Source: Actinopolyspora mzabensis
GTDB taxonomy: Bacteria; Actinomycetota; Actinomycetes; Mycobacteriales; Pseudonocardiaceae
Direction: 5' to 3'
Assembly: GCF_900101095.1 (NCBI RefSeq)
Contig: NZ_FNFM01000004.1
Span: 372,001 to 436,000 of the forward strand
DNA length: 64,000 nucleotides
The notes under the pieces: model-generated
The model's input: only the letters and a program-made list of their open reading frames with translations
What the model was told of the DNA's origin: nothing
The model's database searches: none
Made by a program: the position numbers and the translations under genes
Part shown: positions 20,815 through 40,573 of the stretch, piece by piece
Layout of the letters: the number at the start of each line of letters is the position of its first letter
Position numbering within the stretch: the stretch's first letter is position 1

Positions 20815-21051
20815 TCACTTCACGGCCCTCGTGAACACCACTTCTCGGCAGCGGAGAAAATCCCGCCGGATGTACTCCATGATGATCGGCATGGCCAACG
20901 GTCGCAGCCGCGACGCGCCGAGGTACCGCCGGCCGTGCTTCAGCGGGTCGTCTCCGCACGTCCGTGTCGAGGTGTCCGTGCCGTAAGACGGTCCGAGGGT
21001 GCGCAGTGGTGTGCAACCGCTCTGGTGCGTAGCACCAGCGGCACCACCTGA
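20815..21051 (-). pseudogene. C-terminal gene remnant downstream of the methyltransferase
   Basis: After the methyltransferase stop (21052-21054) the same frame stays open to a TGA at 20815-20817. From about 20940 the codons have the high GC3 of real genes and the peptide reads DPLKHGRRYLGASRLRPLAM then EYIRRDFLRCREVVF. No start with a ribosome-binding site precedes it. It looks like the tail of a lost gene; I cannot name the family with confidence. A read-through extension of the methyltransferase is less likely. Confidence 0.4.
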
Positions 21052-21840
21052 CTAGCGGCTGCGCCGTTCCGACGCGGGCCGTTGGCCCCATGCGGAGAAC
21101 TGCAGCGTCGTCACGTCGCGTGCTTCGGGGCGATCGAGTCCGGCCAGGAACGCCTCGATGTCCTCAGCCGCGACCAGGCCGTTGTCCACCAGTGGTTGCC
21201 CCTGCAGTTCCATGCGGGCTCGCATCAACTCGTTCTCCTCACGACCCTGGCCCGGCCCGAGCGGACGCACAGTGACATCAACCGATTCCAGCCCGACCCT
21301 TGAGAGCGTCGCGGGTAGCCTGCGTGCTTGACGCCAGTCGACACCGCCCGCCATGGCGGCCTTGATGTAACCGTCGATGACCCTGCTGCCCACCGGAGTG
21401 GTCGCATCCTCGCTGGGCATGAAGTAGAAGTCCTCGGCAACCAGCCAACCGCCGGGCGACAGCCAATCCGCCGCACGGGTGAGGAGATCCACCGGGTCGT
21501 CCAACTCCGACAGCACGGCACGGATCAGCACGAGTTCGAACGACTCGGAGGCGAACTCCGCGGTGGTGATGTCGGCCTCCCGCACCGTCAGATTGGATGC
21601 TCCGGAAGTCTCCAACCGACTGGTGTCGACGTCCATGGCGAGCACCGACCCGCGTGGGGTTCGCTCTGCCAGCCAGCGGGACATGGAACCGAGCCCGGCA
21701 CCCACGTCGAGGCAACGCCAGTCCGACCCGATCGGCAGGTTCTCGATGATCCGCCGGGTGGGCGGGTCGTAATTTCGCTCCCACAACTTCCCGATTATCG
21801 TTCCGGAGTCCTGTTCCGGATGGGTCGCTCGATTGGTCAT
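21052..21840 (-). CDS. class I SAM-dependent methyltransferase
   Basis: 262 residues. SAM-binding motif I is CLDVGAGLGSMSRWLAE at about 43-59, then the acidic ribose-binding residue in VLAMDVDTSRL, and motif IV-V region FELVLIRAVLSELDDP with WLSPGGWLVAEDFYF. This is a free-standing small-molecule methyltransferase. As the last intact gene of the long operon, 31 bp after the ferredoxin gene, it probably O- or C-methylates the polyketide. The exact position is unknown. Confidence 0.88.
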   Translation of the reverse strand: MTNRATHPEQDSGTIIGKLWERNYDPPTRRIIENLPIGSDWRCLDVGAGLGSMSRWLAERTPRGSVLAMDVDTSRLETSGASNLTVREADITTAEFASESFELVLIRAVLSELDDPVDLLTRAADWLSPGGWLVAEDFYFMPSEDATTPVGSRVIDGYIKAAMAGGVDWRQARRLPATLSRVGLESVDVTVRPLGPGQGREENELMRARMELQGQPLVDNGLVAAEDIEAFLAGLDRPEARDVTTLQFSAWGQRPASERRSR

Positions 21841-21871
21841 GAAAAACTCCTCCGTCTGATCGTGCTGTCGG

Positions 21872-22084
21872 TCAGTCCTGTTCGGAGACGGTCACGCTTA
21901 TAGCCCCCGTGGGGCAACAATCCGCGATGTCCTGCAGCAATAGGACTTTTTCCTCGTTCGTGATGTTTCGCTGCGAATTCTCCGAGTATCCTTCCTCGTC
22001 GATTCTGAAGAGTTCCGGTCCCATCGCCTCGCACAGTCCGGCACCTTGGCAGAGACTCCGGTCGACTCGAGCGGTTGCACGCAT
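21872..22084 (-). CDS. P450-type small ferredoxin
   Basis: 70 residues. Cys12, Cys18 and Cys57 (in CCPTGAI; Cys56 is extra) give the C-x5-C...C-P pattern of the [3Fe-4S] or [4Fe-4S] ferredoxins that accompany actinomycete P450s. The start at 22084 is 14 bp from the P450 stop, so they are co-translated. It should pass electrons from a general ferredoxin reductase to the P450. No reductase gene is in the window. Confidence 0.93.
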   Translation of the reverse strand: MRATARVDRSLCQGAGLCEAMGPELFRIDEEGYSENSQRNITNEEKVLLLQDIADCCPTGAISVTVSEQD

Positions 22085-22098
22085 GGTTTTCCCTCCCG

Positions 22099-23334: not shown

Positions 23335-23423
23335 ATTTGTTCCACTCTTTCGCGTCTCGTGATGAGTTCGTCAGCGATCGCGTCCGATTGCGCTCGGACC
23401 GACGTTGCTGAGGTTGGATTTCG

Positions 23424-24290
23424 CTATTTTCGTGCGAAAGCGACGGTGCGCCGCACCAAGCACTCTTCCGCGAAGGAGATTGCACGGAGGTGGTAAGAGC
23501 GAGCCGCCCATCCCAGACTGATGTTGTGGCCCGCGTTCGGCTGCCGCTCCACCTTGACGGTGGTGGAGCGGAACAGCTCTTCCAGGGCGGTCGTGGACTC
23601 GTCCCCGTGGAGCCACCATTTCTCCTGCTCGGCGAATGTGAGGCGCACCGGAACACGTATCCTCGCCGCTATGGTCGGAAAGATGTCGGGCCAGCGCTTC
23701 GCCACGTCGATCTCACGGCAGGGGACCGGTGTCACTATCGACTCGCTGTGGCGGAAGGTACCGGGTGGGTAGAATCCGAGTTTGCCCCAGTTCAGCCACC
23801 AGCGTCTTCTGTCGTGCAGGTCGGAGATTTCATCGGGACTCACCGCGTACTGGTGTCCGCATCCCGAGACATCGACACCGAGCAGCTCTTGCTCACCACC
23901 GTTTCCGGCCACTGTGAGCACGAGCTTTCCTCCGAAGGAGTGTCCCAGCAGGAACAGACCGGCTCCGCTGGAATAACGGTCGGTGAAGTCCTTCAAACCA
24001 GCGCGTAGCGTGGCTGCCTGTTCGTCCAGTTCCTGCCCCCGCGGTAGGCGGTGAGCCGATGAGCCGTACCCCGGGCGGTCGAGCGCGAGTACAGTCCACC
24101 CCAACCTCGTTCCGGTTTCCAGAAGTGATTGCCCGGGGTACGAGTGACCGTGGAAGTACCCTGCCCGCATCCCCGCACCGTGCAGTGCGACCACGACCCC
24201 CCGGGGTTCCGTGTGAGTGGGCTCGGCCAACAAGCCGGACAGCGGAACTCCCGCCGCGTCCAGGGTGATCTCGTCGGTGGATTCGTTCAT
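23424..24290 (-). CDS. alpha/beta hydrolase
   Basis: 288 residues from the ATG at 24290, which follows caggagaacacag. Typical order: oxyanion region VVVALHGAGMRAGYFHG, nucleophile elbow GHSFGGKLVLTV (Ser), and catalytic His in NAGHNISLGW near the C-terminus. A lid-like insertion holds an aromatic-rich stretch (RRRWWLNWGKLGFYPPG). It could open a lactone or ester made by one of the oxygenases in the same operon, or release a product. Ring-cleaving oxygenation followed by hydrolysis would fit the flanking genes (inference). Confidence 0.85.
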   Translation of the reverse strand: MNESTDEITLDAAGVPLSGLLAEPTHTEPRGVVVALHGAGMRAGYFHGHSYPGQSLLETGTRLGWTVLALDRPGYGSSAHRLPRGQELDEQAATLRAGLKDFTDRYSSGAGLFLLGHSFGGKLVLTVAGNGGEQELLGVDVSGCGHQYAVSPDEISDLHDRRRWWLNWGKLGFYPPGTFRHSESIVTPVPCREIDVAKRWPDIFPTIAARIRVPVRLTFAEQEKWWLHGDESTTALEELFRSTTVKVERQPNAGHNISLGWAARSYHLRAISFAEECLVRRTVAFARK

Positions 24291-24354
24291 CTGTGTTCTC
24301 CTGCGGCGCTCCGACAGGGTGGGTATTCCCGGCTGGCGGCTCACCGGCTCTCGA

Positions 24355-25038
24355 TCACGCCGGTTCTCGATCTCCCTTTTTCCGTCCGGATATCCTTCGG
24401 AAGACCGTGCACCACAGGAATTTCGGTTCGGACACCTCGAGCGCGGCGATGTCCGGTTGCCCGGCCGCGTTTCGCGGATCCGCCAGGTAGGCGTCGCACG
24501 CCTCGTCGTCGACCCAGCCCGGGTAGTTGATGTACGTCTCGCCGTCGACGCTGATGTACGGCGTGGCACCGACGAAGCCGGGGAAGTGACGCTTCCACTC
24601 CCCGCTGCGCACCAATAAATCGGCGAGCGCATTCGCGTTGTCGTGTCCGCCGACTTGCCGTGTCGCCAGTACCACTATTCCGGGTTCCTTGTCCGAATCC
24701 GGACCGTGGATACCCGGCGCGGGAACTCCGCTGAAGCTCTCGGCTGAAACGACGCCGGGACGGTCCGCCAACGTACGGAGTTTCTCGGCCTCCGGGGATT
24801 CCAGGATGATTCGCCGGTGGTCGGCAGCACCGGACCATCCGGTCAGGATAACCACTGTTGTGTCGTCCGTACTGATGTGTACGAGTGCGGAGCGGAAACC
24901 TTCTGAATCGCTGATCGAGTCGCGGACTTCTCTCGCGGCTGTTTCGGCGAGCTCCCGGCCGGTTTCGGGATCGGTTGTCCGCAAGGTGCAGAAGGTGACG
25001 TATTCCGAGTTCGTTTCCGAGGTGCTCGTCGTGCTCAT
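24355..25038 (-). CDS. tandem ABM-domain oxygenase
   Basis: 227 residues from the ATG at 25038 after ggaggcgatg (an ATG 3 nt upstream is equally possible). Two ferredoxin-like antibiotic-biosynthesis-monooxygenase folds follow each other: about 8-95 (YVTFCTLRTTDPETGREL ... VVILTGWSGAADHRRI) and about 115-205 (GIVVLATRQVGGHDNAN ... YINYPGWVDDEACDAYL). Small ABM proteins such as ActVA-Orf6 and SnoaB are cofactor-free anthrone oxygenases. The larger GilOII/JadG/AlpJ group, as I recall it, uses this fold to cleave ring B of angucyclines. That makes ring opening or contraction a reasonable hypothesis here. Confidence 0.8.
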   Translation of the reverse strand: MSTTSTSETNSEYVTFCTLRTTDPETGRELAETAAREVRDSISDSEGFRSALVHISTDDTTVVILTGWSGAADHRRIILESPEAEKLRTLADRPGVVSAESFSGVPAPGIHGPDSDKEPGIVVLATRQVGGHDNANALADLLVRSGEWKRHFPGFVGATPYISVDGETYINYPGWVDDEACDAYLADPRNAAGQPDIAALEVSEPKFLWCTVFRRISGRKKGDREPA

Positions 25039-25059
25039 CATCGCCTCCAAACCGCTCGC

Positions 25060-25926
25060 TCAGCGGAACAGGTCGGAGTTCTCCTCCGACCACTGCCGAA
25101 ACGTGCGCGCAGGCCTTTCGAGGACCTCCTCGACGGTCGAAGTGACCCTCTCGGGCTCCTTGGTCAGTATCGCGAAGTACTCCAGCGCGCCCTCGGCGTA
25201 CGCGGCGGGCCAGCCGCTTTCGATCATATTCGTGCTGGCCGACTCGTGGGGAACATCGACCCATCGCGCTTCTCGTCCGCTCACCTCGGAGATGATCCGC
25301 AACTGTTCGATCTGACTCAGTGCCTCGGGGCCGGTTACGACGTACCGCTGTCCGGAGTGGCCTTCCTCGGTCAGCGCCCGAACCGCGACAGCTGCCAGGT
25401 CAGCCTCGTGGATCGGGCTACGAGTGGCGTTGCCGTAAGGAGAACGAACCACTCCCTCCGATCGGATCTGATGTGCCCAGCCGGTCCCGGCATTGCAGCA
25501 GAAGCCGGTAGTGCGGAGGAAGGTCCACTCCATCCCGAGGCGCTCGATCTCCCGTTCGACGAAAGCATGGCAGCGGTTGTCCACCGTTTCGATTCCGTTT
25601 TGCACACCGATCGAGGAGACGAAAACCACTTTCTCGGTGTGTTGCTTAATGCGCTTGAGCACGTCCGGGACAGTTTCCACGTCCAGGGTGAAGAAAGGCC
25701 ACATCAGGAACACGCTCGTTGCTCCTTCCAGGCAGCGATCCAGCGAATCGGGATCGCTCAGATCGCCGTGAAACACCTCCACGCCCTCTTCGAGCCTGTT
25801 GATTTTCGGGTCGTCAGGCAGTGTCAGGGCTCGCGTTTCGACGCCCTTTTCGAGAAGCTGTGAAACTGCGTGAGGTCCAACGTTTCCGGTTGCCCCGATG
25901 ACAACCACTTTCTGTTTTTCCGTCAT
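25060..25926 (-). CDS. NmrA-like NAD(P)-binding oxidoreductase
   Basis: 288 residues from the ATG at 25926; the longer frame upstream overlaps the epsilon-subunit gene out of phase. The Rossmann motif VVVIGATGNVGPHAVSQLLE opens the protein and VVFVSSIGVQNG follows at about 100. There is no YxxxK catalytic pair of classical SDRs, as in the NmrA/quinone-reductase group. Close relatives in aromatic clusters reduce quinones or shifted ketones, possibly after hydroxylation. It lies between AccE and the ABM oxygenase within the operon. Confidence 0.85.
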   Translation of the reverse strand: MTEKQKVVVIGATGNVGPHAVSQLLEKGVETRALTLPDDPKINRLEEGVEVFHGDLSDPDSLDRCLEGATSVFLMWPFFTLDVETVPDVLKRIKQHTEKVVFVSSIGVQNGIETVDNRCHAFVEREIERLGMEWTFLRTTGFCCNAGTGWAHQIRSEGVVRSPYGNATRSPIHEADLAAVAVRALTEEGHSGQRYVVTGPEALSQIEQLRIISEVSGREARWVDVPHESASTNMIESGWPAAYAEGALEYFAILTKEPERVTSTVEEVLERPARTFRQWSEENSDLFR

Positions 25927-26018
25927 GGTGTTGTCCAATCTTTTCGAGTTTGTTCCCGTGCTGGTTCGAGGTTTCGGCTGGAAAGTTTCGGAGTTTGCGG
26001 ACAATTCGTCAAGGGTTG

Positions 26019-26222
26019 TCAGCGGTTTCTTTGCCGCCAGCTTCGTCCCCCTTGGGTGACCGGTTCCGTCCAATCCGCGGAACGGTGGCTCGTTGAATCT
26101 TCCGCGATGTTTTCGACGGTGGCTTCGCAGGCGAGGAGCACCGCGGTGAGCGCGGCGATCTCGGAGGCGTTCGGTCTGCCCTTGGTTATGCTGATTCTTT
26201 CGTGCGTTGTCGATTCGTCCAT
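26019..26222 (-). CDS. acyl-CoA carboxylase epsilon subunit
   Basis: 67 residues. ISITKGRPNASEIAALTAVL is the hallmark AccE/PccE segment, and the tail WTEPVTQGGRSWRQRNR is the usual basic, Trp-containing end. These small actinobacterial proteins bridge and activate the alpha and beta subunits. The gene begins 14 bp after the carboxyltransferase stop. Its presence supports a working carboxylase assembled from cluster-borne subunits rather than a decarboxylase. Confidence 0.8.
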   Translation of the reverse strand: MDESTTHERISITKGRPNASEIAALTAVLLACEATVENIAEDSTSHRSADWTEPVTQGGRSWRQRNR

Positions 26223-26236
26223 TAGGATTACCCGGC

Positions 26237-27781
26237 TCACTGTGGCTGGTTGCCGTGCTTGCGACTCGGTAGTTCGGCGTGCTTGGCTCGCAGCATCCCC
26301 AAGGAGCGGACCAGTACCTGTCGTGTCTCCCCGGGATCGATGACGTCGTCGACGAGACCACGTTCGGCCGCGTAGTACGGGTGCATCAGATCCGCCCGGT
26401 ACTCCTTGATGCGTTGCTGCCGCACGCTCTCGGGATCGTCGGCGGCGTCGATCTCCTTGCGGAAGATGACGTTGGCGGCCCCCTCCGCGCCCATGACCGC
26501 GATCTCGTTCGTGGGCCACGACAGCGAGACATCGGATCCGATGGAGCGCGAGTCCATCACGATGTAGGCGCCACCGTAGGCCTTGCGCAGCACCAGCGAG
26601 ATCCGCGGCACCGTGGCGTTGCAGTAGGCGTAGAGCAGTTTCGCGCCGTGCCGGATGATGCCGCCGTGCTCCTGTCCCACCCCCGGGAGGAAGCCGGGGA
26701 CGTCCACCAGCGTGATGAGCGGGATGTTGAACGAGTCGCAGAACTGGACGAATCGCGCCGCCTTCTCACTGGAGTGGATGTCCAGAACCCCGGCCAGTGA
26801 CTGCGGCTGGTTCGCCACGATGCCGACCGTCTCACCCCCGAGTCGGGCGAGCGCGCATACCACGTTGTCCGCCCAGGAGGGGCTGATCTCGAAGTAGTCC
26901 GCGTCGTCGACGACCTCACCGATCACCCCGCGGACGTCGTAGGGACGGTTCCCGTCGACCGGCACCAGGTCACCCAGAGAGTCGTTGCGTCGGTCGACCG
27001 GGTCCCCCGTCGACTCGACGGGGGGCAGCTCGCGGTTGTTGGAGGGCAGCATCGACAGCAGATATCGAACCTCATCCAGGCAGGTCTCCTCGTCGTCGTA
27101 GGCGAAGTGGGCCACTCCCGAGGTGCCCGCGTGCACATCGGCGCCGCCGAGGCCGTCGTGGCTGATCTCCTCACCCGTCACGGACTGGACCACGTCGGGT
27201 CCGGTGATGAACATCTGCGAGGTGTCCCGCACCATGAACACGAAGTCGGTCAACGCCGGGGAGTACGCCGCACCACCGGCGCACGGCCCGAGCATCACGC
27301 TGATCTGCGGGATGACACCGGACGCCTTGGTGTTGCGGCTGAAGATACCGCCGTAACCGGCCAGTGCGGTGACGCCTTCCTGGATTCGCGCGCCCGCACC
27401 GTCGTTGAGGGAGACCAAAGGTGCACCGGCGGCGATGGCCCGGTCCATGAGGTTGTGGATCTTCTGTGCGTGCGCTTCCCCGAGCGCGCCACCGAAGATC
27501 CGGAAGTCGTGCGCGTAGACGAACACCGTTCGTCCGTACACCGTTCCCCAGCCGGTTACCACGCCATCGGTGTAGGGCCTGCGCTGCTCCAGACCGAACC
27601 CGCTCGCGCGGTGGCGCCGGAACTGCTCCAACTCCTGGAAGGTTCCCTCGTCCAGCAGCGAGTCGATTCGCTCCCGCGCGGTTTGCTTGCCCTTGGCGTG
27701 CTGTCGTTCGGTGGCCTTCGGATCAGGTCCCTGCTGAACCCACCGCCTGTTCTCGACGAGTTCGTCGACACATTCCCGCAT
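26237..27781 (-). CDS. acyl-CoA carboxylase carboxyltransferase (beta) subunit
   Basis: 514 residues, the normal length for AccD/PccB proteins. Two crotonase-like halves are seen: oxyanion-hole glycines in GGIFSRNTKASGVIPQIS and MLGPCAGGAAYSPAL in the first, and VDVPGFLPGVGQEHGGIIR with KAYGGAYIVMDSRS in the second. It transfers carboxyl from biotin to acetyl- or propionyl-CoA. In the operon it sits between the PPTase and AccE and should raise malonyl-CoA for chain building. The jadomycin cluster has a comparable gene (jadN). A paralogue's C-terminus is at the left edge of the window. Confidence 0.93.
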   Translation of the reverse strand: MRECVDELVENRRWVQQGPDPKATERQHAKGKQTARERIDSLLDEGTFQELEQFRRHRASGFGLEQRRPYTDGVVTGWGTVYGRTVFVYAHDFRIFGGALGEAHAQKIHNLMDRAIAAGAPLVSLNDGAGARIQEGVTALAGYGGIFSRNTKASGVIPQISVMLGPCAGGAAYSPALTDFVFMVRDTSQMFITGPDVVQSVTGEEISHDGLGGADVHAGTSGVAHFAYDDEETCLDEVRYLLSMLPSNNRELPPVESTGDPVDRRNDSLGDLVPVDGNRPYDVRGVIGEVVDDADYFEISPSWADNVVCALARLGGETVGIVANQPQSLAGVLDIHSSEKAARFVQFCDSFNIPLITLVDVPGFLPGVGQEHGGIIRHGAKLLYAYCNATVPRISLVLRKAYGGAYIVMDSRSIGSDVSLSWPTNEIAVMGAEGAANVIFRKEIDAADDPESVRQQRIKEYRADLMHPYYAAERGLVDDVIDPGETRQVLVRSLGMLRAKHAELPSRKHGNQPQ

Positions 27782-27829: not shown

Positions 27830-28606
27830 TCAGGATTTCGTGCCCACGCGGAAGTCCGTTCCGAGCAATTCGGCCGAATACGCGGAATAGAGGCAGTCGG
27901 CCGGCAACCAGCGTGCGTTGGTGGGACGGCTGACACCGTCGACCACCGCTGCCGCTGCGACGTGATTGACGTGTTCGGAGCCGCAGGCGATGTTGTCGAC
28001 CACCCACCCGGGCGGGGCGGAGGGAGCCGGACCATCGTCGGCCCTCCCCAAATAATCGGCTGCCAGGTCACGGCAGAGCCCGGTGCCGAGTCCCTTGAGG
28101 TAGGCCTCCTTGCGCGTCCACAGGCGTCCGAAGGGAAGCTGGCGCCGTGCACTCGGGTATCGCGCCAGTTCCGCTTGTTCGTCCGGGTGCAGCGCAGGGC
28201 TGCACATTTCCACTGTTTCCTCGGAGGGCAGCACCTCCACGTCTACTCCGACCGGTTCCGTTGCCACGCCGAAGAGCGCGAGACCACTGGTGTGCGACAA
28301 CGAGTAGTGCAGTGGTGTACCGACCATGACCGGCTTGCCGTGCAGCCCCCCGCAAGCGGGGCAGGAGGTCCGGCTCAGGCGAACCTCACCGGGAACGGTG
28401 TCCAGGTAGGCGGCCAGGATACGTCTCAAGGCGATATGCGCGGTGAGGTACAGGAGCCTGTCGTGTGGCCGGAGGAACGCCGAAGCGCGTTGCCGCTCGC
28501 TCTCGTCGAGCTCGCCGGTCTGCAACGGAGCCCCTGGCGGTTCGGTCCACGGCTGCCGGAGCAGCCACAGGTGCAACCATCCCGCTCCGTTTCGATGCGG
28601 ACTCAT
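27830..28606 (-). CDS. 4'-phosphopantetheinyl transferase (Sfp-type)
   Basis: 258 residues from an ATG overlapping the upstream stop as ATGA (28603-28606). Sfp signatures are present: GVDVEVLP at 120-127 supplying the Mg-binding Asp and Glu, and WTRKEAYLKGLGTGL from 163. There is also a Cys pair (SCPACGG) typical of some actinobacterial members. It moves phosphopantetheine from CoA onto Ser of carrier proteins, here probably both ACPs of the cluster. JadM of the jadomycin cluster is a precedent for a PPTase inside an angucycline cluster. Confidence 0.92.
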   Translation of the reverse strand: MSPHRNGAGWLHLWLLRQPWTEPPGAPLQTGELDESERQRASAFLRPHDRLLYLTAHIALRRILAAYLDTVPGEVRLSRTSCPACGGLHGKPVMVGTPLHYSLSHTSGLALFGVATEPVGVDVEVLPSEETVEMCSPALHPDEQAELARYPSARRQLPFGRLWTRKEAYLKGLGTGLCRDLAADYLGRADDGPAPSAPPGWVVDNIACGSEHVNHVAAAAVVDGVSRPTNARWLPADCLYSAYSAELLGTDFRVGTKS

Positions 28607-28992
28607 AATCGCCCGCCGTCCGTCCACGGCACCGAGTCGCTCACACCCTCGGGATCGCTCCTCAGCGGGTACGGATCCACGATTCGCATCGCGCACAACG
28701 CGGCCAGTTCGGTCACACTTGACGCCCGCAGGATCCGGACCGCCCCGATGTCGATGCGCAGGAGCAGCCGGATCCTCCGCTCGAGCCGGAGCGCCACTAT
28801 GGAGCCCACTCCCTGGGTGTGCAACGGCTTACTAGGATCCACACTGTGCTCGGAGGGAAGTTCCAGGGCCCTGGTCACCTCCTGGCAGAGGAATCTCTCG
28901 ATGCTTTCCACGCGTTCGTCGATGTCGGTGGCGCGCAGCGTCTCCGGATCCGTGCACGGTGCGCGATCGCGTGCTGTGCTCCTCGTGTTCAT
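28603..28992 (-). CDS. second stand-alone carrier protein
   Basis: 129 residues. Central region of about 75 residues has the carrier-domain pattern: VESIERFLCQEVTRALEL, then GVGSIVALRLERRIRLLL with candidate phosphopantetheine Ser64, then VTELAALCAM. The residue before Ser is Gly rather than the usual Asp, and the domain is more like type I PKS/NRPS carriers than like the type II ACP of this cluster. Both ends have extra disordered residues. It is coupled to the PPTase gene. A role in starter-unit supply, tailoring on a carrier, or a second short chain is possible but unproven. Confidence 0.72.
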   Translation of the reverse strand: MNTRSTARDRAPCTDPETLRATDIDERVESIERFLCQEVTRALELPSEHSVDPSKPLHTQGVGSIVALRLERRIRLLLRIDIGAVRILRASSVTELAALCAMRIVDPYPLRSDPEGVSDSVPWTDGGRL

Positions 28993-28998
28993 CGTCGA

Positions 28999-30243
28999 TC
29001 ACCCTTCCTGCCGTGTTGCCTCGTCGGATCCGCGTCCGGATACCGCGACCAGCACACCGACGACTCCGACAGCTGTGATGAGCAGCAGAGCCGGGCGGTC
29101 CTGCTCGGACACCGCCAGCACTACCGCTACCAGGGACAACATGATTACGGCCGAGAACTGCACCGCACTCTGGTACATGGCAACCGCTCGTTCTCGGTCC
29201 TGCGGACGTACTCGGGAAGTGGCCCGCATGTTCAGCGCCCCGAACGAGAGCACGAAGCCGACTCCGACGAGCAGCAACGTGGGGAGCACTCCGACCGAGT
29301 AGGACTCAGCGGCGAGCGGAGTCAGGCGGAACGCGTATCCCGCTGTCGCGGCCATCGCCCCGAGGGCTATCAACGACCCGGTGCCGAATCGTTCGACCAT
29401 CCTTCCCGTGAACGGGGAGGACAACGCCAGTGGCAGGCAAGCGGGCAGAAATGCCAGCGCGACCTGCCATCTGTCCCAGTCCCAGTGATCTCGTAGTTCG
29501 AAGGTCAGTAACAACAGCGTGCTCAGATACGTCCCGTTGAGCACCGCAGCGCCGACTGACGAGCGGACCAGTGGTCCGTTGACCGTCGATGAAAGTCCGT
29601 GCCCGGGCGGTCGGATCCGAGCGGGGGCCTGTGCGGGGATCAGTCGTGCCGCGAACGGTGCCAGCACCAGGGCTGCCAGTGCCGGAACCACGAACAGCCA
29701 ACGCCAGCTCAGTGCGTTCAGCGCCGCGGACAACACCAGTCCTCCGGTGAAACCCGCGGCCCCGAACATGGAGTAGAACGAAACCGCGCGCCGCTGGTCC
29801 GGTCCTTCGGAGAAGGTCGCGTTGATGATCGCCAGCCCCACCGGTGCGGTGAGAGCGGCGCACATGCCCTTCACGATTCGGGTCAGCACGAGTACTGCCC
29901 AGCTGGTGGTCCATCCACCGATCAACGAGGCGGCGGCGAAGACGAGCAGCGCGATCAGATACACCCGGCGCCTGCCCCAGTACGCGGTCACCCGCCGTCC
30001 CAGCAGCAGGAGGGAGCCGAATCCGAGCGCGAAGCCGCTCATCACCAGCTGAACCTGCCACAGCGGCAGCTCGAAATCGTCGGCTATACCGGGAAGAGCG
30101 GGCAACACCACCGAGACTTCGAGCGCATCGATGAGCATGTTCCCGGAGAGCACGAAGAGCAGCATCCACAGCCGCGCGTCCCAGCCTCCTTTCGTGACCG
30201 ACCGAGGGGTGGGTTTGGTAACCATTTCGGTGGCACCCTCCAT
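28999..30243 (-). CDS. MFS exporter of the polyketide operon
   Basis: 414 residues with about 12 to 14 membrane spans. MFS loop motif GRRVTAYWGRRRVYLIALL lies after span 2, and MLIDALEVSVVLPALPGIAD after span 1 resembles the DHA2/EmrB type in short form. It ends six bp before the carrier protein start, so it belongs to the main operon. It probably exports the polyketide; it is one of three MFS pumps in the cluster, which hints at product toxicity or more than one exported species. Confidence 0.9.
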   Translation of the reverse strand: MEGATEMVTKPTPRSVTKGGWDARLWMLLFVLSGNMLIDALEVSVVLPALPGIADDFELPLWQVQLVMSGFALGFGSLLLLGRRVTAYWGRRRVYLIALLVFAAASLIGGWTTSWAVLVLTRIVKGMCAALTAPVGLAIINATFSEGPDQRRAVSFYSMFGAAGFTGGLVLSAALNALSWRWLFVVPALAALVLAPFAARLIPAQAPARIRPPGHGLSSTVNGPLVRSSVGAAVLNGTYLSTLLLLTFELRDHWDWDRWQVALAFLPACLPLALSSPFTGRMVERFGTGSLIALGAMAATAGYAFRLTPLAAESYSVGVLPTLLLVGVGFVLSFGALNMRATSRVRPQDRERAVAMYQSAVQFSAVIMLSLVAVVLAVSEQDRPALLLITAVGVVGVLVAVSGRGSDEATRQEG

Positions 30244-32350: not shown

Positions 32351-33286
32351 CTAGCGCCGTGCTTCCGCGTGTTCCTTGGCGTACCCCAGGGTCGCCCTGC
32401 TGTTCCCGCCCAGCGCGTTCCTGATGAACGTGCGTGCTTCGGTGACTCCGGCGTCATCACCGAGGATTCCGGCGATGTTGTCCGCGTTGATCACAACGGT
32501 GTGCTGTGACGTGGCGATCGTTGTGCCGTCCTCGTTCTCCTCGAGCGTCCAGCAGCCGGTGTGCACCGTCATCAGCGGCGGAACGGTCGTCTGCTTATAA
32601 GTGATCTTGTGATTCGGGAAACAGACCCGTACGGACTCGGTGGTGTGCGTCGAACCGTCCTTCGTCCTGGTGTCCATGCGCAGCAACTGCACACCGGGTG
32701 AATCCTCGGTCATGCTCACCGTGGCCACGTGGGGAAGCCGTTCCTCCCACAGTCGGGCCTCGTTGAGGAAGTCGTAGACGTCCTTTGCCGAACCGCTTAT
32801 GTCCATGCTGTCCTCGAAGGACATGTACAGGTCCTCGTTGGTGGCGAGTTCGACGTTCTCCTTCAACGAAGCCAGTTCCGAACGACTGTTGCGGTCAACG
32901 GCCTGGTCGATCCACTCCAGGTGCTCTCGATCGTCGTCGACTGCCCGGTAGTCGTGCAGCAGCCGCACCAGCGAGGAGCGCTCGCTCCGTTGTTCGATGA
33001 TCCACGTACCGCCCATCTCGGCGACCGGATGTGCCGGGGTCTCCTGCCGGAAGGAGATCGACATGTTCTCCGGGTCGAGGACGCGCTTCGAGACCCAGTT
33101 CTTCGCCGCACCGTTGGCGGTTGCCCATATCCGGATGCGTTCCTCGGTCTCACCGCGATCGGCGTAGTCGACGTACACCGAAGGAGGGAAGATCTGCGGC
33201 CAGTTCTCCACTTCCGCGATCAGCCGGTACACCTCGGCAGCCGGGGCATCGACGGTGATCTCGTGCTCGACTTCGCGTTTGGTCAT
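32351..33286 (-). CDS. didomain aromatase/cyclase (PgaL/JadD type)
   Basis: 311 residues made of two SRPBCC (Bet v1-like) domains. The first starts REVEHEITVDAPAAEVYRLI with VENWPQIFPPSV; the second starts at about 157 with MDISGSAKDVYDFLNEARLW. Didomain ARO/CYCs close and aromatise the first ring (C9-reduced chains) of decaketides. It lies 27 bp after the ketoreductase, exactly as in known angucycline clusters. Confidence 0.94.
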   Translation of the reverse strand: MTKREVEHEITVDAPAAEVYRLIAEVENWPQIFPPSVYVDYADRGETEERIRIWATANGAAKNWVSKRVLDPENMSISFRQETPAHPVAEMGGTWIIEQRSERSSLVRLLHDYRAVDDDREHLEWIDQAVDRNSRSELASLKENVELATNEDLYMSFEDSMDISGSAKDVYDFLNEARLWEERLPHVATVSMTEDSPGVQLLRMDTRTKDGSTHTTESVRVCFPNHKITYKQTTVPPLMTVHTGCWTLEENEDGTTIATSQHTVVINADNIAGILGDDAGVTEARTFIRNALGGNSRATLGYAKEHAEARR

Positions 33287-33313: not shown

Positions 33314-34099
33314 TCAGAAGTTGCCGAGAGCGCCGCAGACGTTGAGCGCTTGTGCCGTGATGGAAGCCGCGGTGTCGGTAACCAGGTATCCGACCAGCCC
33401 GGCGACCTCGTCAGGGGTCGAGTACCGGCCGAGTGGAATCTTGGCCTGGAACTGGGACAGGACCTGTTCCTCGGTGGTGTCGTACGCGGCCGCGTAACCC
33501 TGCCGCACTCGCTCGGCCATCGGGGTCTCCACGTACCCGGGGCAGACCGCGTTCACCGTGATGCCCGTCTGGGCGAGTTCCTTGCCCAGCGCTTTGGTCA
33601 GCCCGACCACACCGTGTTTGGAGGCCGAGTAGGGAGCGCCCAGAACCACGCCCTGCTTGCCCGCCGTGGAGGCGATGTTGACGATCCGCCCCCAGCTCTT
33701 GTGCCGCATGCCGCCGGTGTTGAGCACCTCACGAGTCATCCGGAACACACTGTTCAGGTTGGTCTCGACGACGTCGAACCACAGCTCGTCGGCGATATCC
33801 GCCGTCACCCCACCGCCGGAACGCCCGGCGTTGTTGACCAGCACGTCGATCTCCCCGAACCGGTCCACCGCCTGCCGCACCAAGCTGTTCACGTCCTCCG
33901 CCGAGCGCACATCGCACGCGGCGCCGTCCACGTTCAGCCCCTCCTGCCGGAGTTCTTTGAGCGTCGCGGACAAGTTCTCCTGGTCGCGAGCACAGATGAA
34001 CACCTGGTGGTTCTGCCGAGCCAGCAATTTGGTCGACGAAAGGCCGATGCCGCTGGTGCCCCCGGTGACGATCGCGGTCCGTTGTTCCTGCTGTGTCAT
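33314..34099 (-). CDS. C9 ketoreductase (ActIII-like SDR)
   Basis: 261 residues. NADPH-binding TGGTSGIG at 12-19, VNNAGRSGGG at about 88-97, catalytic Ser in NIASTAGKQG and YSASK as the YxxxK pair. This is the standard type II PKS ketoreductase reducing the C9 carbonyl of the nascent chain, which fixes the first-ring folding. It is preceded by the ACP gene and followed by the aromatase. The C-terminal ALNVCGALGNF is characteristic of the ActIII group. Confidence 0.95.
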   Translation of the reverse strand: MTQQEQRTAIVTGGTSGIGLSSTKLLARQNHQVFICARDQENLSATLKELRQEGLNVDGAACDVRSAEDVNSLVRQAVDRFGEIDVLVNNAGRSGGGVTADIADELWFDVVETNLNSVFRMTREVLNTGGMRHKSWGRIVNIASTAGKQGVVLGAPYSASKHGVVGLTKALGKELAQTGITVNAVCPGYVETPMAERVRQGYAAAYDTTEEQVLSQFQAKIPLGRYSTPDEVAGLVGYLVTDTAASITAQALNVCGALGNF

Positions 34100-34185: not shown

Positions 34186-34464
34186 TCAGGAGACCGGGTC
34201 TGCCTGTGCCAGCCCCAGGTCGTTGTTGACGGCTTCGACCAAAGCGCGGGGTGTCTCAGCTTCGCTGATCGCGGATTCGTCGAGTGAGATCTCGTATTCC
34301 CGCTCGATCCGCCCGCCGGTTTCGAGCAGGGCCAACGAGTCGTAGCCGAGCACCTCGAAGTCGATGTCGAGTATGTCGCCGTCGAGACTTACACCGTCGC
34401 CGCTGCCGGCTGCCTCACGAAGGATCCGCTTCAGGTCTTCGACTGTGAATTCGGTGGTCGACAT
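34186..34464 (-). CDS. type II PKS acyl carrier protein
   Basis: 92 residues from the ATG at 34464, after ttaggagattccga. The phosphopantetheine site is FEVLGYDSLALLE with Ser43. Four-helix carrier fold with the acidic helix II (TGGRIEREYEISLDE). It holds the growing decaketide for the KS pair encoded just before it. Its order between KS-beta and KR is the canonical one. Confidence 0.95.
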   Translation of the reverse strand: MSTTEFTVEDLKRILREAAGSGDGVSLDGDILDIDFEVLGYDSLALLETGGRIEREYEISLDESAISEAETPRALVEAVNNDLGLAQADPVS

Positions 34465-34506
34465 TCGGAATCTCCTAATTGTTGTGAACATTGTTGTTTC
34501 CGGACT

Positions 34507-35751
34507 TCACCGTCCGGAGGACTGGTTTGAATCCCGCAGGACCATTGCGGAGTTGAAGCCGCCGATTCCCCGGGCGATCACCAGGCAGTTACGGACACCT
34601 GCCCTCGACTCGCGCTTTTCCGACACCAGGTCGATGTCGTATTCGTCGGCGATGCGGACATTCGGCGTCGGAGGGATGACGCCGTCCCGCATCGCGAGGA
34701 AAGCAGTGGCAACGTCCAACGAGGCGGCCCCGGAACCGAGTCGCCCGGTCGTCGTCTTCGGAGCGGTTACCGGGACTCCGCGGACACCGAACACCTTGGT
34801 GAGGGCCTCGGCCTCCGCCCGGTCCAGTTCGGGCACCGCGGCCGCGTCGGCGAACACGAGGTCGATCTCGGCAGGATCCGCGTCCGCGTTACGGAGTGCC
34901 TGCTCGATCGCCTTCTGCAGACTGGTCGCGCTCTCCACCCCGGCTCCGGGGTCGATGGTGGCTGCGTACCCCGAGATCTCGCCGTAGACGTTCGGCGCAC
35001 GTCGCTCGTGGGCGCTGGCGAGATCCTCCATGATGACCAGCGCCCCGCCTTCGCCGGGCACGTGTCCCGCGGCTTCCGCGTCGAAGGGGAGGTACGCCCG
35101 ATTCGGGTCGCTGCTGGTGCTCAACCTCCGGCTTGTCAGCTGAGCGGTCCAACCCCACGGGCACAGCGAGGCGTCGATACCACCCGAGACGATCATCCGC
35201 GTGCCCTTGCGGATTTGGCGCCTCGCCTGGGCGATGGCGTCCAGCCCCCCGGCCTGGTCACTGACGACCACCCCGCTGGGGCCGCGCATGCCGTTGCGGA
35301 TCGAGATCTGACCGCTGTTTACCGCGTAGAACCAGGCGAAGGATTGGTACGCGCTGACGTATTGCCCTCCCTGACTCCAGAGATTTCGCAGTTCGTTCTC
35401 ACCGAACTCGAAACCACCGGACGAGCTGGCGGTCACCACCCCCATCTCGTACTCGTCGAACTCGCTCGGTTGTGTTCTCGCGTCGGCGAAAGCGCAGTCG
35501 GTACCCACCAGAGCCAGCTGCGTCATGCGATCGGTTTGCGAGATGATTCTGCTGGTGAGGTGTTCTTCCGGGACGAATCCCTTCACCTCGCCGGCGAGTC
35601 GGGAGGGATACTGCGACGGATCGAAGTGGGAAATCCGTCCTATACCGGATACACCCTCGCGGACGGATTCCCAATAGTTCCGGTTCCCGAGCCCGTTGGG
35701 TGCCGCGATTCCCAGGCCGGTCACGACGACGCTACTGTTCCTGCCGTTCAT
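34507..35751 (-). CDS. ketosynthase beta / chain length factor
   Basis: 414 residues from the ATG at 35751, which overlaps the KS-alpha stop as ATGA (35748-35751). The KS active-site Cys is replaced by Gln166 in [11 protein letters not shown], the diagnostic change of chain length factors. It partners KS-alpha and sets the chain at ten acetate units in angucycline clusters; that length is inferred from the cluster type. The C-terminus ends [11 protein letters not shown] as usual. Confidence 0.96.
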
Positions 35752-37019
35752 GCCCCACTCCTTTCCGGGCTGGTGAGCACCATGGCGCTCTGAAATCCGC
35801 CGAAGCCGCTCCCCACCGACAAGACGGCGTCGGTCGGGTGCTCGCGCGCTGCAAGCGGTACGTAATCCAGATCGCACTCCGGGTCGGACGTGTGCAGGTT
35901 GGCGGTCGGTGGAACCACGTCGTGCTCGATGGCCAACGCGGAAGCGGCCACCTCGATCGACCCGATGGCACCCAGCGAGTGGCCGACCATCGACTTGATC
36001 GAACTCACCGGGACGCGATACGCGTGCTCGCCGAGGCTGCGCTTGAAGGCGGCGGTTTCGTGCCGGTCGTTCTGCTTGGTGCCCGAGCCGTGCGCGTTGA
36101 CGTAGTCGATCCGCTCCGGTGCCATTCGCGCCTCGTCGATGGCGACCCGTATCGCCTCTGCCATCTCCCGACCGTCGGAACGCAGCCCGGTCATGTGGTA
36201 GGCGTTGCACCGGGAGGCATAGCCTGCGATCTCGGCGTAGACATGAGCACCGCGGCTCCTGGCACTTTCCAAGTCCTCCAGTACGAATACCGCGGCACCC
36301 TCGCCCAGCACGAATCCGCTGCGCGTCCCGTCGAACGGACGTGAGGCGTGCTCGGGATCCTGGTTGCGCGGGGTTGTCGCCTTGATCGCGTCGAAGCAGG
36401 CGACCGTGATCGGCGAGATGGGAGCGTCGGTCGCCCCCGCGATCATCACGTCGGCGGAGCCCTCCCGGATCAGTTCGGTGGCGTGACCGACGGCGTCGAG
36501 CCCCGACGTGCACCCGGTCGACACCACAGTGCTGGGACCCTGCGCACCCAGTGCTCCGGCGACTTCTGCGGTGAACGAGCTGGGAACGAAGTAGTTGTAC
36601 AGATGTGGGACCGCGTACTCGTGGTCGACCAGTTTCAGTCGCCCGCCATCGCTGACGGTGCGGTACTCCCAGTCCAGACCCGTGGTAGCTCCGACGGCAC
36701 TGCCGATGGTCACGCCGATGCGATACGGATCCACGTCGGAGAACGGAAGTCCGCTGTCCGCCGCCGCTTCTCGTGCCGTGACGACCGCGAACTGCGCTGC
36801 CCGATCCATGCGCCTGGTTTCCTGCGGGGTGAGCCCGGCCTGCTCCGGATCGAAGTCGACCTCGGCCGCGCACTGGGAACGGAAATCGGATGGGTCGAAG
36901 AAGCTGATGCGTCGCGTGGCCGTGCGGCCGTCGCTCAGCAGACTCCAGAAGTTCTTGGTACCCACCGCGCCCGGCGCGGTCACCCCGATTCCGGTAATCG
37001 CTACACGTCCCTCGGTCAC
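35748..37019 (-). CDS. ketosynthase alpha
   Basis: 423 residues. Active-site Cys170 in [16 protein letters not shown], His310 in [12 protein letters not shown] and His347 in [12 protein letters not shown] complete the Cys-His-His triad. It condenses malonyl units on the ACP. The start overlaps the upstream cyclase stop (37016-37019) and its stop overlaps KS-beta, so the three are made in fixed ratio. Confidence 0.97.
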
Positions 37020-37342: not shown

Positions 37343-37364
37343 CCTGTTTCTCCTTGTCCGTGAC

Positions 37365-38834
37365 TTACCTGGCTGGGCCGAACCAGCGATCCAGCGCCGT
37401 GGGCAGGTCGTGGTGACTGCCCGGAGCCGCCCAGACGACGTAGCCGTCTGGCCGGATGAGGATCGCCGTGGTGGAGGCCAGCGGACTGTCGTCCGACAAT
37501 TCGTCCGCGGTCGCGGTAACGACGTCGATGCGGTCGGACCAGCCCGAGGCTCGACTGCGGAGCACCGAGTTGTCGGTGAGGTCGAGCAGAACCCCGCGTC
37601 CCCGGTGCAGCAGTTCCGTGCTGCTGGTACGGCTACCGTTCCTCGCCAGTTCCAATCGCGGCATGCGTAACCCGAGCAGGGGATGGCTGCCGTTCCCGAC
37701 GTCGTAGCGGATGTCCAGGCCGCTGACCATCGCGGCGAAGTAGCGGCTGACCTCGTCGTACTGGACCAGTTCGGAGAAGACGTCCCGCAGCGGCTGCATC
37801 TCCGGGCCACTGAGAAACAGCAATCCCTGGGCCTGGGTGTTCATCAACAGGCGTCGTCCCACCGCGTGCCGCTCGTCGTGATAGGTGTCAAGCAGCTCGA
37901 GCGGAGCGGTACCACCGATCACGGCAGCGAGCTTCCAGCCGAGATTGACCGAGTCCTGGATGCTGGCGTTCATGCCCTGGCCCCCGGCGGGGAGGTGGAT
38001 GTGTGCCGCATCGCCGGAGAGCAGTACCCGGCCACGGCGGTACTCGGTCACCTGCCGGGTGGCGTCCCCGAACGCGCTGACCCACACCGGTTCGGCGTGA
38101 GAGATGTCGATGCCGGTCAATCTCTTCCAGGCATCGGCGACCTCGGCGAACGGAGGCGACTCGCTGCGGCGCTGCGGGGGCCTGTCGCGTTCGCAGACGA
38201 TGATCCGCGTCACTCCGCCGGGCAGCTGCCCAACCATAACCATGCCGCCGGGAAGCGATTCCCCGATCATTCGTGGTTCCAGTTCGACACCGCGCAGATC
38301 GGCCAGGAACATTTCCATCGTGGCCGCGGTTCCGGGGAAGTCGAATCCCGCTGCCTTCCGGACGGTGCTTCTACCACCGTCGCAACCGACGAGCCAGCCG
38401 GTGCGCAGAGTCTGCTCACCCTCCGGGGAACGAACCGTGACGGATACCTCGTCCCCCTCGTCCTGGAACGAGACGAGTTCGTTTCCTCGGCGAATGTCGG
38501 TCCCCAGCTCGCGCGCCCAGTCCTCGAGCACCGATTCCGTGGTGGATTGCGGGATGGTCTTGGCGGCCTGGTGGGCACCCTCGAGAACGCCGAAATCAAC
38601 CGGGATACCGCCGAAATGCCCCTGATTGCTGGTTTCGATCTCACCGAACCGTGGCAGCAGACCCCGCTGGTCGAACACTTCCATGGTTCGTGACGTGAAA
38701 CCAAGTCCACGGGATTCGCCGGTGGGATTCTCGAGTCGTTCGACGACGATGACGTCCACTCCCGCGAGACGTAGCTCACCGGCGAGCATGAGTCCGGCCG
38801 GTCCGGCGCCGACCACTATGACTGGTGCGTCCAT
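37365..38834 (-). CDS. angucycline C12 FAD monooxygenase (PgaE/UrdE/JadH type)
   Basis: 489 residues from the ATG at 38834 with gaggagaggtac upstream. GAGPAG at 9-14, NADPH/FAD DG motif in LVGCDGGRSTVRKAAGFDFP, and RVLLSGDAAHIHLPAGGQ identify the aromatic hydroxylase family. The C-terminal thioredoxin-like domain is complete (about 400-489), unlike in the fusion protein. It hydroxylates C12 and, in PgaE, also C12b of prejadomycin-type intermediates. It is the first gene of the long operon. Confidence 0.94.
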   Translation of the reverse strand: MDAPVIVVGAGPAGLMLAGELRLAGVDVIVVERLENPTGESRGLGFTSRTMEVFDQRGLLPRFGEIETSNQGHFGGIPVDFGVLEGAHQAAKTIPQSTTESVLEDWARELGTDIRRGNELVSFQDEGDEVSVTVRSPEGEQTLRTGWLVGCDGGRSTVRKAAGFDFPGTAATMEMFLADLRGVELEPRMIGESLPGGMVMVGQLPGGVTRIIVCERDRPPQRRSESPPFAEVADAWKRLTGIDISHAEPVWVSAFGDATRQVTEYRRGRVLLSGDAAHIHLPAGGQGMNASIQDSVNLGWKLAAVIGGTAPLELLDTYHDERHAVGRRLLMNTQAQGLLFLSGPEMQPLRDVFSELVQYDEVSRYFAAMVSGLDIRYDVGNGSHPLLGLRMPRLELARNGSRTSSTELLHRGRGVLLDLTDNSVLRSRASGWSDRIDVVTATADELSDDSPLASTTAILIRPDGYVVWAAPGSHHDLPTALDRWFGPAR

Positions 38835-39877
38835 GTACCTCTCCTCGTGAAGTGTTGAACAGCATGGGATCGTGGCAACGTGGATCAACCGGCTCGGTAG
38901 TCGCCGTAGGCGGTAAAGAATTGAAAAAATCAATTCGTTGCGACGCCGTGATCTGGTTTCTGCTCTGAGGGAGACCCGATTCGGCCTGCTGTCTCGTTTC
39001 GAGGTTGTTGTTTCTCGCGGATACGAAAATCTTCACCCGTTTCGCTGTCGGTGTCAATCGATCCGTCGAGGGGTGGTGCTCAATTTTCTGCAAAGACTTC
39101 GTCGATCGGTTCTCTGTTCACGGTCCAGCTTTGTTGACAACGTATGCGGGGGAGGCGCGCCGTTTGCGTGTCGCCCCGGAGGTCGATTGCCATGTTATTT
39201 CGATTTCGGCGGCGAAGCAATCCCCGGATTGTGAACGGAAGTACAATACTTTGTCAAAAACAAAAAGTGAGATTGCGTAAACTCTGTGTTCGGAAACTAA
39301 AAATCTTTGTCAGAAATCATGCCGTTGCGGTGTTTCGGGTGAACGTGCGGCTGTCGGTGTCGTGTGGTCCGCGGGGCGCCCCGCGGAGGTCCGATTCCGA
39401 GTGACTGATGCACCTGGTCCGAAGCTCTCCTCGGGGCTGGGATCCCCGGATCATCGACCTCGGGTTCGTGTCCGACCCCGGCCGGTTGGAACCGGCGATG
39501 AGCTGCAGGAGGGCGAATCGCTCGAAACGGTCGGCCAGTGGGGCGGGATCCGCATCACCCCGCGGTACCGCTCGGACCTTCGGTCGGTTCCAGCCGTGGA
39601 CGCCGCGGAGTGTTCATTTCCCGCGGTAACGCTCGACGGCGAGCCGGTTGCTGCGATCGGGCTCGTCCGGGGCCGTCGTTGGCCCGAACCGTCCCGGAGT
39701 AGTCGTGACCGCTTTCAGTCGTACCGGTACGCGAAGGAACCCGTCGTATCGTACGGTTCCGGCCGTTCGGAGGAGATCGCCGAATCCTCCCGGTCGGGGC
39801 AAGTGATCACTGTGGACTGCCGCGTCTGTGTTCGTGTGTTCGTTCCGGCCGTGTGCCGCGCAGTGGCCTTCGTCCGG
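38835..39877 (-). promoter_or_regulatory. 1.04-kb non-coding leader region of the polyketide operon
   Basis: No gene with proper codon bias is visible between the oxygenase start and the regulator stop. About 38910-39340 is much richer in A+T than the rest of the cluster. ctttgtca occurs at 39249-39256 and 39305-39312 (TGACAAAG on the operon strand), and a further ctttgttgaca at about 39129. These direct repeats are candidates for activator sites. A 12-bp palindrome, cgtaccggtacg, lies at 39720-39731 nearer the regulator's end. Confidence 0.5.
38918..38936. promoter_or_regulatory. palindrome GAATTGA-n5-TCAATTC before the polyketide operon
   Basis: Perfect 7-bp arms around aaaaa, 84 bp upstream of the first start codon of the operon (38834). 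Position and symmetry suggest a binding site for a dimeric regulator, perhaps the JadR1-like protein encoded upstream. Confidence 0.5.
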
Positions 39878-40573
39878 TCACAACGCCGCGTGTTGCTTCT
39901 TCCGCTCCGCCTCGAATTGGAAGCCGACTCCCCGGACGGTGCGGATCCAGTCGTTGGATCCCAGCTTGTTCCGCAGCGTGCTCATGTGCGTGTCGATGGT
40001 GCGGCTGACCCTGGTGCCCATGTTGTCCGCGACAGGGTCCCCCCAGATCTCGGCCATCAGTTTCTGTCGCGAAATCACGGCGCTTGGTCTGCTGGCCAGG
40101 TAGTGGAGTAGTTCGAACTCCTTCCTGGTCAGATTTACCGGCTGGTTGTCGACTCTTACCTCCCTTGTTGCGGCGTCGATCTCCAAGGGGCCTCGGACCA
40201 GGTAGGAGTTGGGGTTTCCCGTGTTCACACGTCGCATGACCGCGTCGATTCGAGCCAACAGTTCCCGGAAGCCGTACGGTTTGCTCAGGCAGTCGTCCGA
40301 ACCGGCCTGTAGTCCGAGGATCTTGTCCGATTCCGTGCTGCATCTGGTAAAAGCGATGATCGGTATATCGGAGGCCGTCCTGATGTTGCGGCAGACCTCC
40401 AGTCCGTCCATGTCCCAAAGTTCCAGGTCGAGCAGTACGAGATCCGCTTCCTGGTATGCCTCGAGCGCCTGGTTACCAGTGTGGACAGCCACCGCTTCGT
40501 GCCCGTGGTTGCGCAGGCCGTCGACTATGGATGCTGCTGCGGTTTTTTCACTCTCCGTCACAAGCAGATGCAT
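39878..40573 (-). CDS. atypical OmpR-type regulator (JadR1/LndI-like)
   Basis: 231 residues from the ATG at 40573. The receiver domain has phospho-type Asp49 (VLLDLELWDMDG) and Lys in CLSKPYGFREL, but the usual acidic pair near residue 8 is TESEK, not DD. The C-terminal winged helix reads VNLTRKEFELLHYLASRPSA with TIDTHMSTLRNKLGS and IRTVRGVGFQFE. No partner kinase is present. JadR1 and LndI, the pathway activators of jadomycin and landomycin, have this architecture, and JadR1 is known to respond to the end product rather than phosphorylation. The same role is inferred for the operon starting at 38834. Confidence 0.9.
   Translation of the reverse strand: MHLLVTESEKTAAASIVDGLRNHGHEAVAVHTGNQALEAYQEADLVLLDLELWDMDGLEVCRNIRTASDIPIIAFTRCSTESDKILGLQAGSDDCLSKPYGFRELLARIDAVMRRVNTGNPNSYLVRGPLEIDAATREVRVDNQPVNLTRKEFELLHYLASRPSAVISRQKLMAEIWGDPVADNMGTRVSRTIDTHMSTLRNKLGSNDWIRTVRGVGFQFEAERKKQHAAL

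Follow-up and report, generated by a model that had tools for sequence, protein, structure and literature searches.

Does the type II polyketide synthase (PKS) locus of Actinopolyspora mzabensis (Pseudonocardiaceae) encode a complete angucycline pathway, and would its product lack the sugars of the classical glycosylated members of that class? The window, i.e. the whole stretch of DNA analysed here, comprises 64,000 nucleotides (nt) of contig NZ_FNFM01000004.1 (assembly GCF_900101095.1, positions 372,001 to 436,000). Taking gene content and phylogeny together, we conclude that the locus is very probably a ~30-kb cluster for the biosynthesis of an angucyclinone, an angucycline that bears no sugar (Table 1). 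The observation made in an earlier sequence-only reading of this DNA, a complete angucycline-type gene set without sugar genes, is thus real and its interpretation sound, and the most interesting thread to emerge is a second, stand-alone carrier protein, here called ACP2.

The minimal PKS, which consists of the ketosynthase KS-alpha, the chain length factor KS-beta and an acyl carrier protein (ACP), is intact as judged by catalytic residues, and every residue named in the sequence-only reading was found exactly (Table 1). Gene calling and family scans likewise returned the order, strand and coordinates first described for the set running from the PgaE-type oxygenase to the oxygenase-reductase. 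This last protein is a fusion whose reductase half matches structure 6ypz in addition to 4osp, and whose oxygenase half matches PgaE (2qa1, E=2e-109) besides CabE (2qa2). Family scans also placed a ketoreductase (KR), an aromatase/cyclase and a PF04673 cyclase in the set; the latter we take to be of the PgaF/JadI type, and the KR is 69-79% identical to those of loci that our marker scoring assigned to the angucycline type. Of the 80 loci kept from a KS-alpha search, nine of the ten best (L009-L018; the exception is L013) have the same succession of cyclase, KS-alpha, KS-beta, ACP, KR and aromatase.

Phylogeny points the same way. When 102 KS-alpha rows were placed in a maximum-likelihood tree, the window protein fell in a 36-row clade (SH-aLRT 98); 32 of its rows come with four or more of the five angucycline markers and four with two or three. 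Its nearest rows by path belong to a same-genus genome (G019, 86% identity) and to Streptomyces cellulosae, with Saccharomonospora sp. CUA-673 next in branching. A separate 14-row clade, mainly of Streptomycetaceae, looks by its gene content like spore-pigment-like clusters. The outcome named in the sequence-only reading as contradicting it, a KS pair grouping with spore pigments or anthracyclines, did not occur: the window KS-alpha stands apart from the spore-pigment-like clade in this tree, which holds no named anthracycline reference. The PgaE- and PgaM-type matches and the KS-alpha clade together uphold the angucycline-type class.

The extent of the cluster had to be revised. The sequence-only reading had ended it at 20815 and 40573, which is too short: because genes belonging to the G019 cluster have their counterparts here at 13398-16812 and 41358-42683, we place the cluster at ~13.4-42.7 kb. 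These are the genes for a biotin carboxylase, a flavin mononucleotide (FMN) reductase, a glyoxalase-like protein and a second transporter of the major facilitator superfamily (MFS), some of which are repositioned between the two genomes. The G019 cluster, found on two pieces (L134, L135), shares nearly all genes with the window at 53-86% identity, including those for ACP2 and the FMN reductase, and differs in the positions of these four genes, in lacking a questin-oxidase-like gene and in having a SnoaL-like gene and another MFS gene. A DsbA-like protein has homologues of 43-47% identity in five angucycline loci (L141, L207, L218, L221 and L060), whereas the G019 pieces yielded no such homologue. 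Proteins of the cluster are acidic overall (D+E 12.7% against K+R 9.5%), a composition that would suit a halophilic genus such as Actinopolyspora.

A pathway can be proposed in which the steps are taken from enzyme families and the gene content itself from sequence. The minimal PKS would build a decaketide from malonyl-CoA, with the in-cluster carboxylase helping to supply the malonyl-CoA. Folding of the decaketide to UWM6/prejadomycin would fall to KR, aromatase and cyclase. Next, the PgaE-type enzyme would oxygenate the C ring to a quinone, and the PgaM-type enzyme would dehydrate or hydroxylate and reduce C6. The resulting aglycone could be tailored by an oxygenase of the antibiotic biosynthesis monooxygenase (ABM) type, perhaps with the in-cluster FMN reductase, as well as by a cytochrome P450 with its ferredoxin, an NmrA-like reductase and a methyltransferase, before export by the MFS pumps.

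Published systems resemble the window to different degrees. The closest parallels in the rubiginone (rub) cluster of Streptomyces sp. CB02414 (PMC8487521) are the order oxygenase-cyclase-KS-alpha-KS-beta-ACP-KR-aromatase-hydroxylase, an ABM monooxygenase, P450 and ferredoxin, an alpha/beta hydrolase, acyl-CoA carboxylase subunits and, in the part of its gene table covered, the absence of a glycosyltransferase. Unlike the window, rub carries an acyltransferase and several methyltransferases in addition to a second P450; its table lists one ACP, and a phosphopantetheinyl transferase (PPTase) is not mentioned in the available text. The rub P450s hydroxylate ring A (PMC8487521), and the window P450 with its ferredoxin recalls them. 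The gaudimycin (pga) and grecocycline (gre) clusters (PMC4943663) share the PgaE- and PgaM-type enzymes, and gre additionally the relative order of exporter, PPTase and carboxylase and a DsbA-like protein, GreD; they differ from the window in their deoxysugar and glycosyltransferase genes and in the placement of GreE. The lugdunomycin (lug) cluster (PMC10728087) encodes LugOI and LugOII, of the PgaE and PgaM types, along with ABM enzymes.

The ABM enzyme is the point at which the strongest competing explanation arises, namely that the product is atypical and ring-cleaved. With the FMN reductase, this enzyme would open ring B, as AlpJ-family enzymes (AlpJ, JadG, GilOII) do in the kinamycin, jadomycin and gilvocarcin pathways (PMC11181247), or epoxidise and open ring C, in whose cleavage LugOIII and LugOV act (PMC10728087); we regard such an outcome as a serious possibility, with the balance somewhat against it. 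The ring-B systems have in common with the window a bidomain ABM-type oxygenase and a flavin reductase helper, and the AlpJ monomer reportedly resembles dimeric anthrone oxygenases (PMC11181247). The window protein carries PF03992 on residues 21-74 and an ActVA-Orf6 match on residues 116-201. Across residues 14-194 it matches 9kdp, an 'anthrone monooxygenase' of 245 residues (E=1.5e-5), and an FMN reductase gene (PF03358) is present both here and in the G019 cluster. Structure 5f9p, annotated as an 'anthrone oxidase-like protein' and which we take to be AlpJ, was reached by a six-row profile only (E=7e-4) and not by the single sequence to E=1, so that kinship to AlpJ appears remote in a comparison that included no labelled AlpJ, JadG or GilOII sequence. 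For ring C, the C6 ketoreductase half needed in lug is present; however, lug uses two ABM enzymes acting in sequence (PMC10728087), and scans of the window locus (cut-offs of E<=0.01 or E<=0.001) found one ABM gene. Also counting against the ring-cleavage reading, ring B can be opened without C6 reduction (PMC10728087). Assignment of the window enzyme to the AlpJ or Lug type was dropped, no labelled reference sequences having been compared; Micromonospora rosaria, chosen because it might supply a fluostatin reference, yielded no match at E<=0.001. The order carboxylase-NmrA-ABM-methyltransferase is common to the window and two Streptomyces clusters (L209, L221), and in L209 (4122-5588) the ABM and methyltransferase homologues share one open frame of 488 residues from the chosen start. 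This frame suggests that the two enzymes act together; it is possibly a natural fusion, and a sequencing error in L209 may also account for it.

It is rather improbable that ring opening is instead the work of the questin-oxidase-like protein at the cluster edge, acting on the quinone ring of the angucyclinone. Its gene matches PF14027, has the same strand as the second MFS gene, from which it is 92 nt upstream, and encodes an NHGPM motif and His/Asp positions that are conserved in all four aligned homologues. The gene was found in none of the nine other same-genus genomes searched. This makes it peculiar to A. mzabensis among the ten, yet the nine include the cluster-bearing G019; moreover, no match occurs in 41 scanned loci, each of at most ~21 kb, and the homologues in G033 and G054 are on contigs other than those of their KS-alpha genes.

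Sugar-free angucyclines such as the rubiginones, WS-5995 and oviedomycin are known, and the product class would therefore not be new in itself. In agreement with the sequence-only reading, the cluster holds no nucleoside diphosphate (NDP)-sugar or glycosyltransferase gene: family scans of the called genes from 13398 to 43918 gave no match to families of glycosyltransferases, nucleotidyltransferases or hexose dehydratases. The NmrA-like protein has NmrA as its best match and a further one to the broad Epimerase family (PF01370, E=5.7e-7). That the product is nevertheless glycosylated, by a sugar pathway encoded elsewhere, seems distinctly unlikely. An EryCIII-like glycosyltransferase does occur in the genome, ~125 kb upstream of the window (G000:C6:246258-247463; L139:6259-7464), and several Streptomyces clusters (G610, G439, G366, G076) have a 2,3-dehydratase within ~20 kb of ACP2. 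Against this, the EryCIII-like gene adjoins mutase-like genes (named by eye) and a lytic polysaccharide monooxygenase gene, and a profile search for the NDP-hexose 2,3-dehydratase PF03559, a usual component of deoxysugar pathways, first run on this genome without a positive control and then repeated with 17 other genomes, was negative for the whole A. mzabensis genome and positive for 13 of the 17. Outside the cluster, the window encodes a PMT_2-type mannosyltransferase-like protein (48032-49567) and, at 59-62 kb on the plus strand, glycosyltransferases. The genes for the latter belong to a plus-strand region (51037-62584) that opens with a 2-oxoacid:ferredoxin oxidoreductase pair and continues with a polysaccharide-type block (UDP-sugar dehydrogenase, sugar transferase, GT4, epimerase).

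A spore pigment or anthracycline cluster, suggested by the type II PKS genes that those classes have in common, can be set aside as highly improbable given the KS-alpha placement described above, in a tree without a named anthracycline reference, and the presence of PgaE- and PgaM-type enzymes, a PF04673 cyclase and a ketoreductase.

Several points weigh against the angucyclinone reading and temper it. L211, although scored as angucycline type, lies outside the 36-row clade on a long branch; this row and the other long-branch row, L075, are probably KS-beta sequences whose own KS-alpha is split or cut, in L211 by the end of the locus. None of the 14 built-in control genomes was positive for PF03559, all positives being other chosen genomes. 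The EryCIII-like glycosyltransferase could add a sugar from elsewhere in the genome, a form of cross-talk considered in the lugdunomycin paper (PMC10728087). The ABM reaction is not assignable from sequence.

ACP2, an overlooked component of the cluster, is encoded just before the PPTase gene, passes the PP-binding cut-off (Table 1), and has as its nearest solved chains ACPs of type I PKSs (LovB, PpsC; E=6.6e-5 and weaker). Among the matches listed for 297 genomes of the family, strong stand-alone ones (E<1e-48) are limited to this genome (twice) and G019; the others have E>=4.5e-19 and are nearly all in long frames. In Streptomyces, at least 27 of 392 genomes have a match at E<=1.5e-18, a cut-off chosen after inspection of the list. 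At least 24 of these 27 are among the at least 118 genomes with a KS-alpha match at E<=1e-205 (hypergeometric P=6.4e-11, uncorrected for relatedness); these counts are lower bounds, as only the nine (ACP2) or four (KS-alpha) best candidates per genome were scored. On these counts, ACP2 would occur in a sizeable minority of angucycline pathways, namely in 24 or more of the 118 Streptomyces genomes whose KS-alpha is angucycline-like. Three weaker short-frame matches (G444, G363, G401) likewise come from genomes with an angucycline-like KS-alpha.

Neighbourhoods were taken from 20 of the 27 Streptomyces genomes, plus S. mashuensis (G001). Angucycline PKS genes are present in 19 of the 20, the exception being L222, which has none within 20 kb. 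For these loci, stand-alone status was judged from the neighbourhood; some frames reach 600-850 codons because GC-rich frames stay open. In 24 of the 26 loci examined, which include a relic in this genome (see below), ACP2 and a PPTase match share a strand and are at most 190 nt apart; L143 and L211 are the exceptions. Six of the 20 (L205, L206, L208, L210, L214, L215) have a second ACP2 copy 3.7-3.9 kb away, with a GxDS motif in place of GxGS. Mantel correlations of ACP2 over uneven gene sets were 0.83 with PPTase (23 loci), 0.47 with KS-alpha (21) and 0.27 with KR (22); preferential co-evolution with PPTase was dropped as an explanation when 15 loci with all ten genes gave r=0.65-0.90 for every gene (PPTase 0.82, KR 0.90), which shows co-inheritance with the cluster only.

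The proximity of the PPTase suggests modification of ACP2, which is probably phosphopantetheinylated by this adjoining enzyme. Its Ser64 is invariant in all 15 aligned proteins (the L018/L143 and L211 homologues not being among them). As to function, we can only guess that ACP2 carries an acyl group for priming or for a late acyl step. Our tentative proposal, to which we give rather less than even weight, is that ACP2 is an unrecognised, dedicated second carrier of type I PKS descent, conserved with its PPTase in a module that usually runs exporter-ACP2-PPTase-carboxylase, and serving an acyl-carrying step (priming, or late acyl or redox chemistry) absent from current angucycline schemes. Two observations on ACP2 count against the angucyclinone reading as outlined here: the L018/L143 and L211 homologues have threonine (GLDT) in place of the serine, and the examined stretches of many angucycline loci (e.g. 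L010, L012, L014, L016, L060) showed no ACP2, which means that the class can do without it. No description of a second carrier protein in angucycline clusters was recognised in the open-licence PMC literature, a scope that does not extend to the pga record, and the gre paper uses 'acyl carrier protein' twice, each time for GreA3 (PMC4943663). Judging by the accession numbers that this paper prints for PgaJ (AAK57531) and PgaI (AAK57534), two pga proteins may lie between these, and one of the two may be an ACP2 homologue.

A second, partial gene set is present in the same genome ~120 kb before the window (G000:C6:248873-251700; L139:8874-11700). Its OmpR-type regulator (71% identical to that of the window) and its ACP2 (52%) are intact, whereas frame changes and stops disrupt the PPTase and the FMN reductase is reduced to a fragment. 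The set looks like the relic of a related angucycline-type cluster. Another same-genus genome, G015, has two different angucycline-type clusters (L137, L138), with no ACP2 detected in the 19 kb examined.

The layout of the minus-strand genes makes a single transcript from 38834 to 21052 plausible, with intergenic gaps of -4 to 102 nt from oxygenase to methyltransferase. The sequence-only reading was correct about the short gaps and overlaps after the oxygenase-reductase and counted ten genes there; the number is 11, the small epsilon subunit gene having been missed. An inverted repeat ~250 nt beyond the last stop codon of the run could mark the transcript end. A scan for promoter and terminator consensus sites found no more of them than in shuffled sequence. 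Between the operon end and a TetR gene there is also a strong 26-nt inverted repeat (20213-20269; 88% complementary, 5-nt loop). The OmpR-type regulator, presumably JadR1/LanI-like by its position, is separated from the PgaE-type oxygenase by 1043 nt.

Table 1 Genes and other features of the angucyclinone locus and its edges (positions in the window; a dot marks no strand; SDR, short-chain dehydrogenase/reductase; SAM, S-adenosylmethionine).
Feature	Position	Strand	Evidence
FAD oxygenase, PgaE/UrdE type	37365..38834	-	PF01494; PDB 2qa1 PgaE E=5.6e-251
Polyketide cyclase, PF04673	37016..37342	-	PF04673 E=3.9e-42
KS-alpha	35748..37019	-	family scan; C170/H310/H347; tree
KS-beta (chain length factor)	34507..35751	-	family scan; Q166
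Type II ACP	34186..34464	-	PF00550 E=3.6e-9; S43
Polyketide ketoreductase (KR)	33314..34099	-	PF00106 E=8.5e-64
Aromatase/cyclase, two cyclase-fold stretches	32351..33286	-	PF10604, 2 stretches, E=4.1e-23
PgaM/UrdM-type oxygenase-reductase (FAD oxygenase fused to an SDR)	30346..32346	-	PF01494 and adh_short; 4osp E=2.3e-131, 2qa2 E=1.8e-110
MFS exporter	28999..30243	-	PF07690 E=2.7e-40
ACP2, stand-alone carrier protein, Ser64 in GVGS	28603..28992	-	PF00550 22.1 bits (cut-off 20.8)
Sfp-like PPTase	27830..28576	-	PF01648 E=1.2e-11
Acyl-CoA carboxyltransferase beta subunit	26237..27781	-	PF01039 E=2.4e-197
Acyl-CoA carboxylase epsilon subunit	26019..26222	-	PF13822 E=8.6e-9
NmrA-like NAD(P)-dependent reductase	25060..25926	-	PF05368 E=4.6e-21
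Two-domain ABM-type oxygenase	24355..25038	-	PF03992 residues 21-74; ActVA-Orf6 match 116-201
Alpha/beta hydrolase	23424..24290	-	PF12697 E=7.5e-11
Cytochrome P450	22099..23334	-	PF00067 E=2.2e-27
Ferredoxin	21872..22084	-	PF13459 E=1.9e-10
SAM methyltransferase	21052..21840	-	PF08241 E=5.4e-14
Inverted repeat 3' of last gene, possible terminator	20771..20804	.	~250 nt beyond last stop
OmpR-type regulator	39878..40573	-	PF00486, PF00072
Second MFS transporter	41358..42683	-	PF05977; 69% homologue inside G019 cluster
Questin-oxidase-like protein, cluster edge, membership unsure	42776..43918	-	PF14027 E=1.2e-10
DsbA-like (GreD/FrnE-like) protein, probable member	16984..17631	-	PF01323 E=2e-23
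Glyoxalase-fold protein	16489..16812	-	PF00903; 72% in G019 cluster
NADPH-dependent FMN reductase	15667..16257	-	PF03358 E=1.8e-39; 70% in G019 cluster
Acyl-CoA carboxylase alpha subunit (biotin carboxylase and carrier)	13398..15173	-	PF02786, PF00364; 69% in G019 cluster

Read as a complete angucyclinone cluster that lacks sugar genes and comes from outside Streptomyces, this locus offers a defined target for genome mining, and a sister cluster in the same genus is there to compare it with. The conserved pair of ACP2 and PPTase raises a further question that can be put to the test, namely why a second carrier protein is kept in many angucycline clusters.

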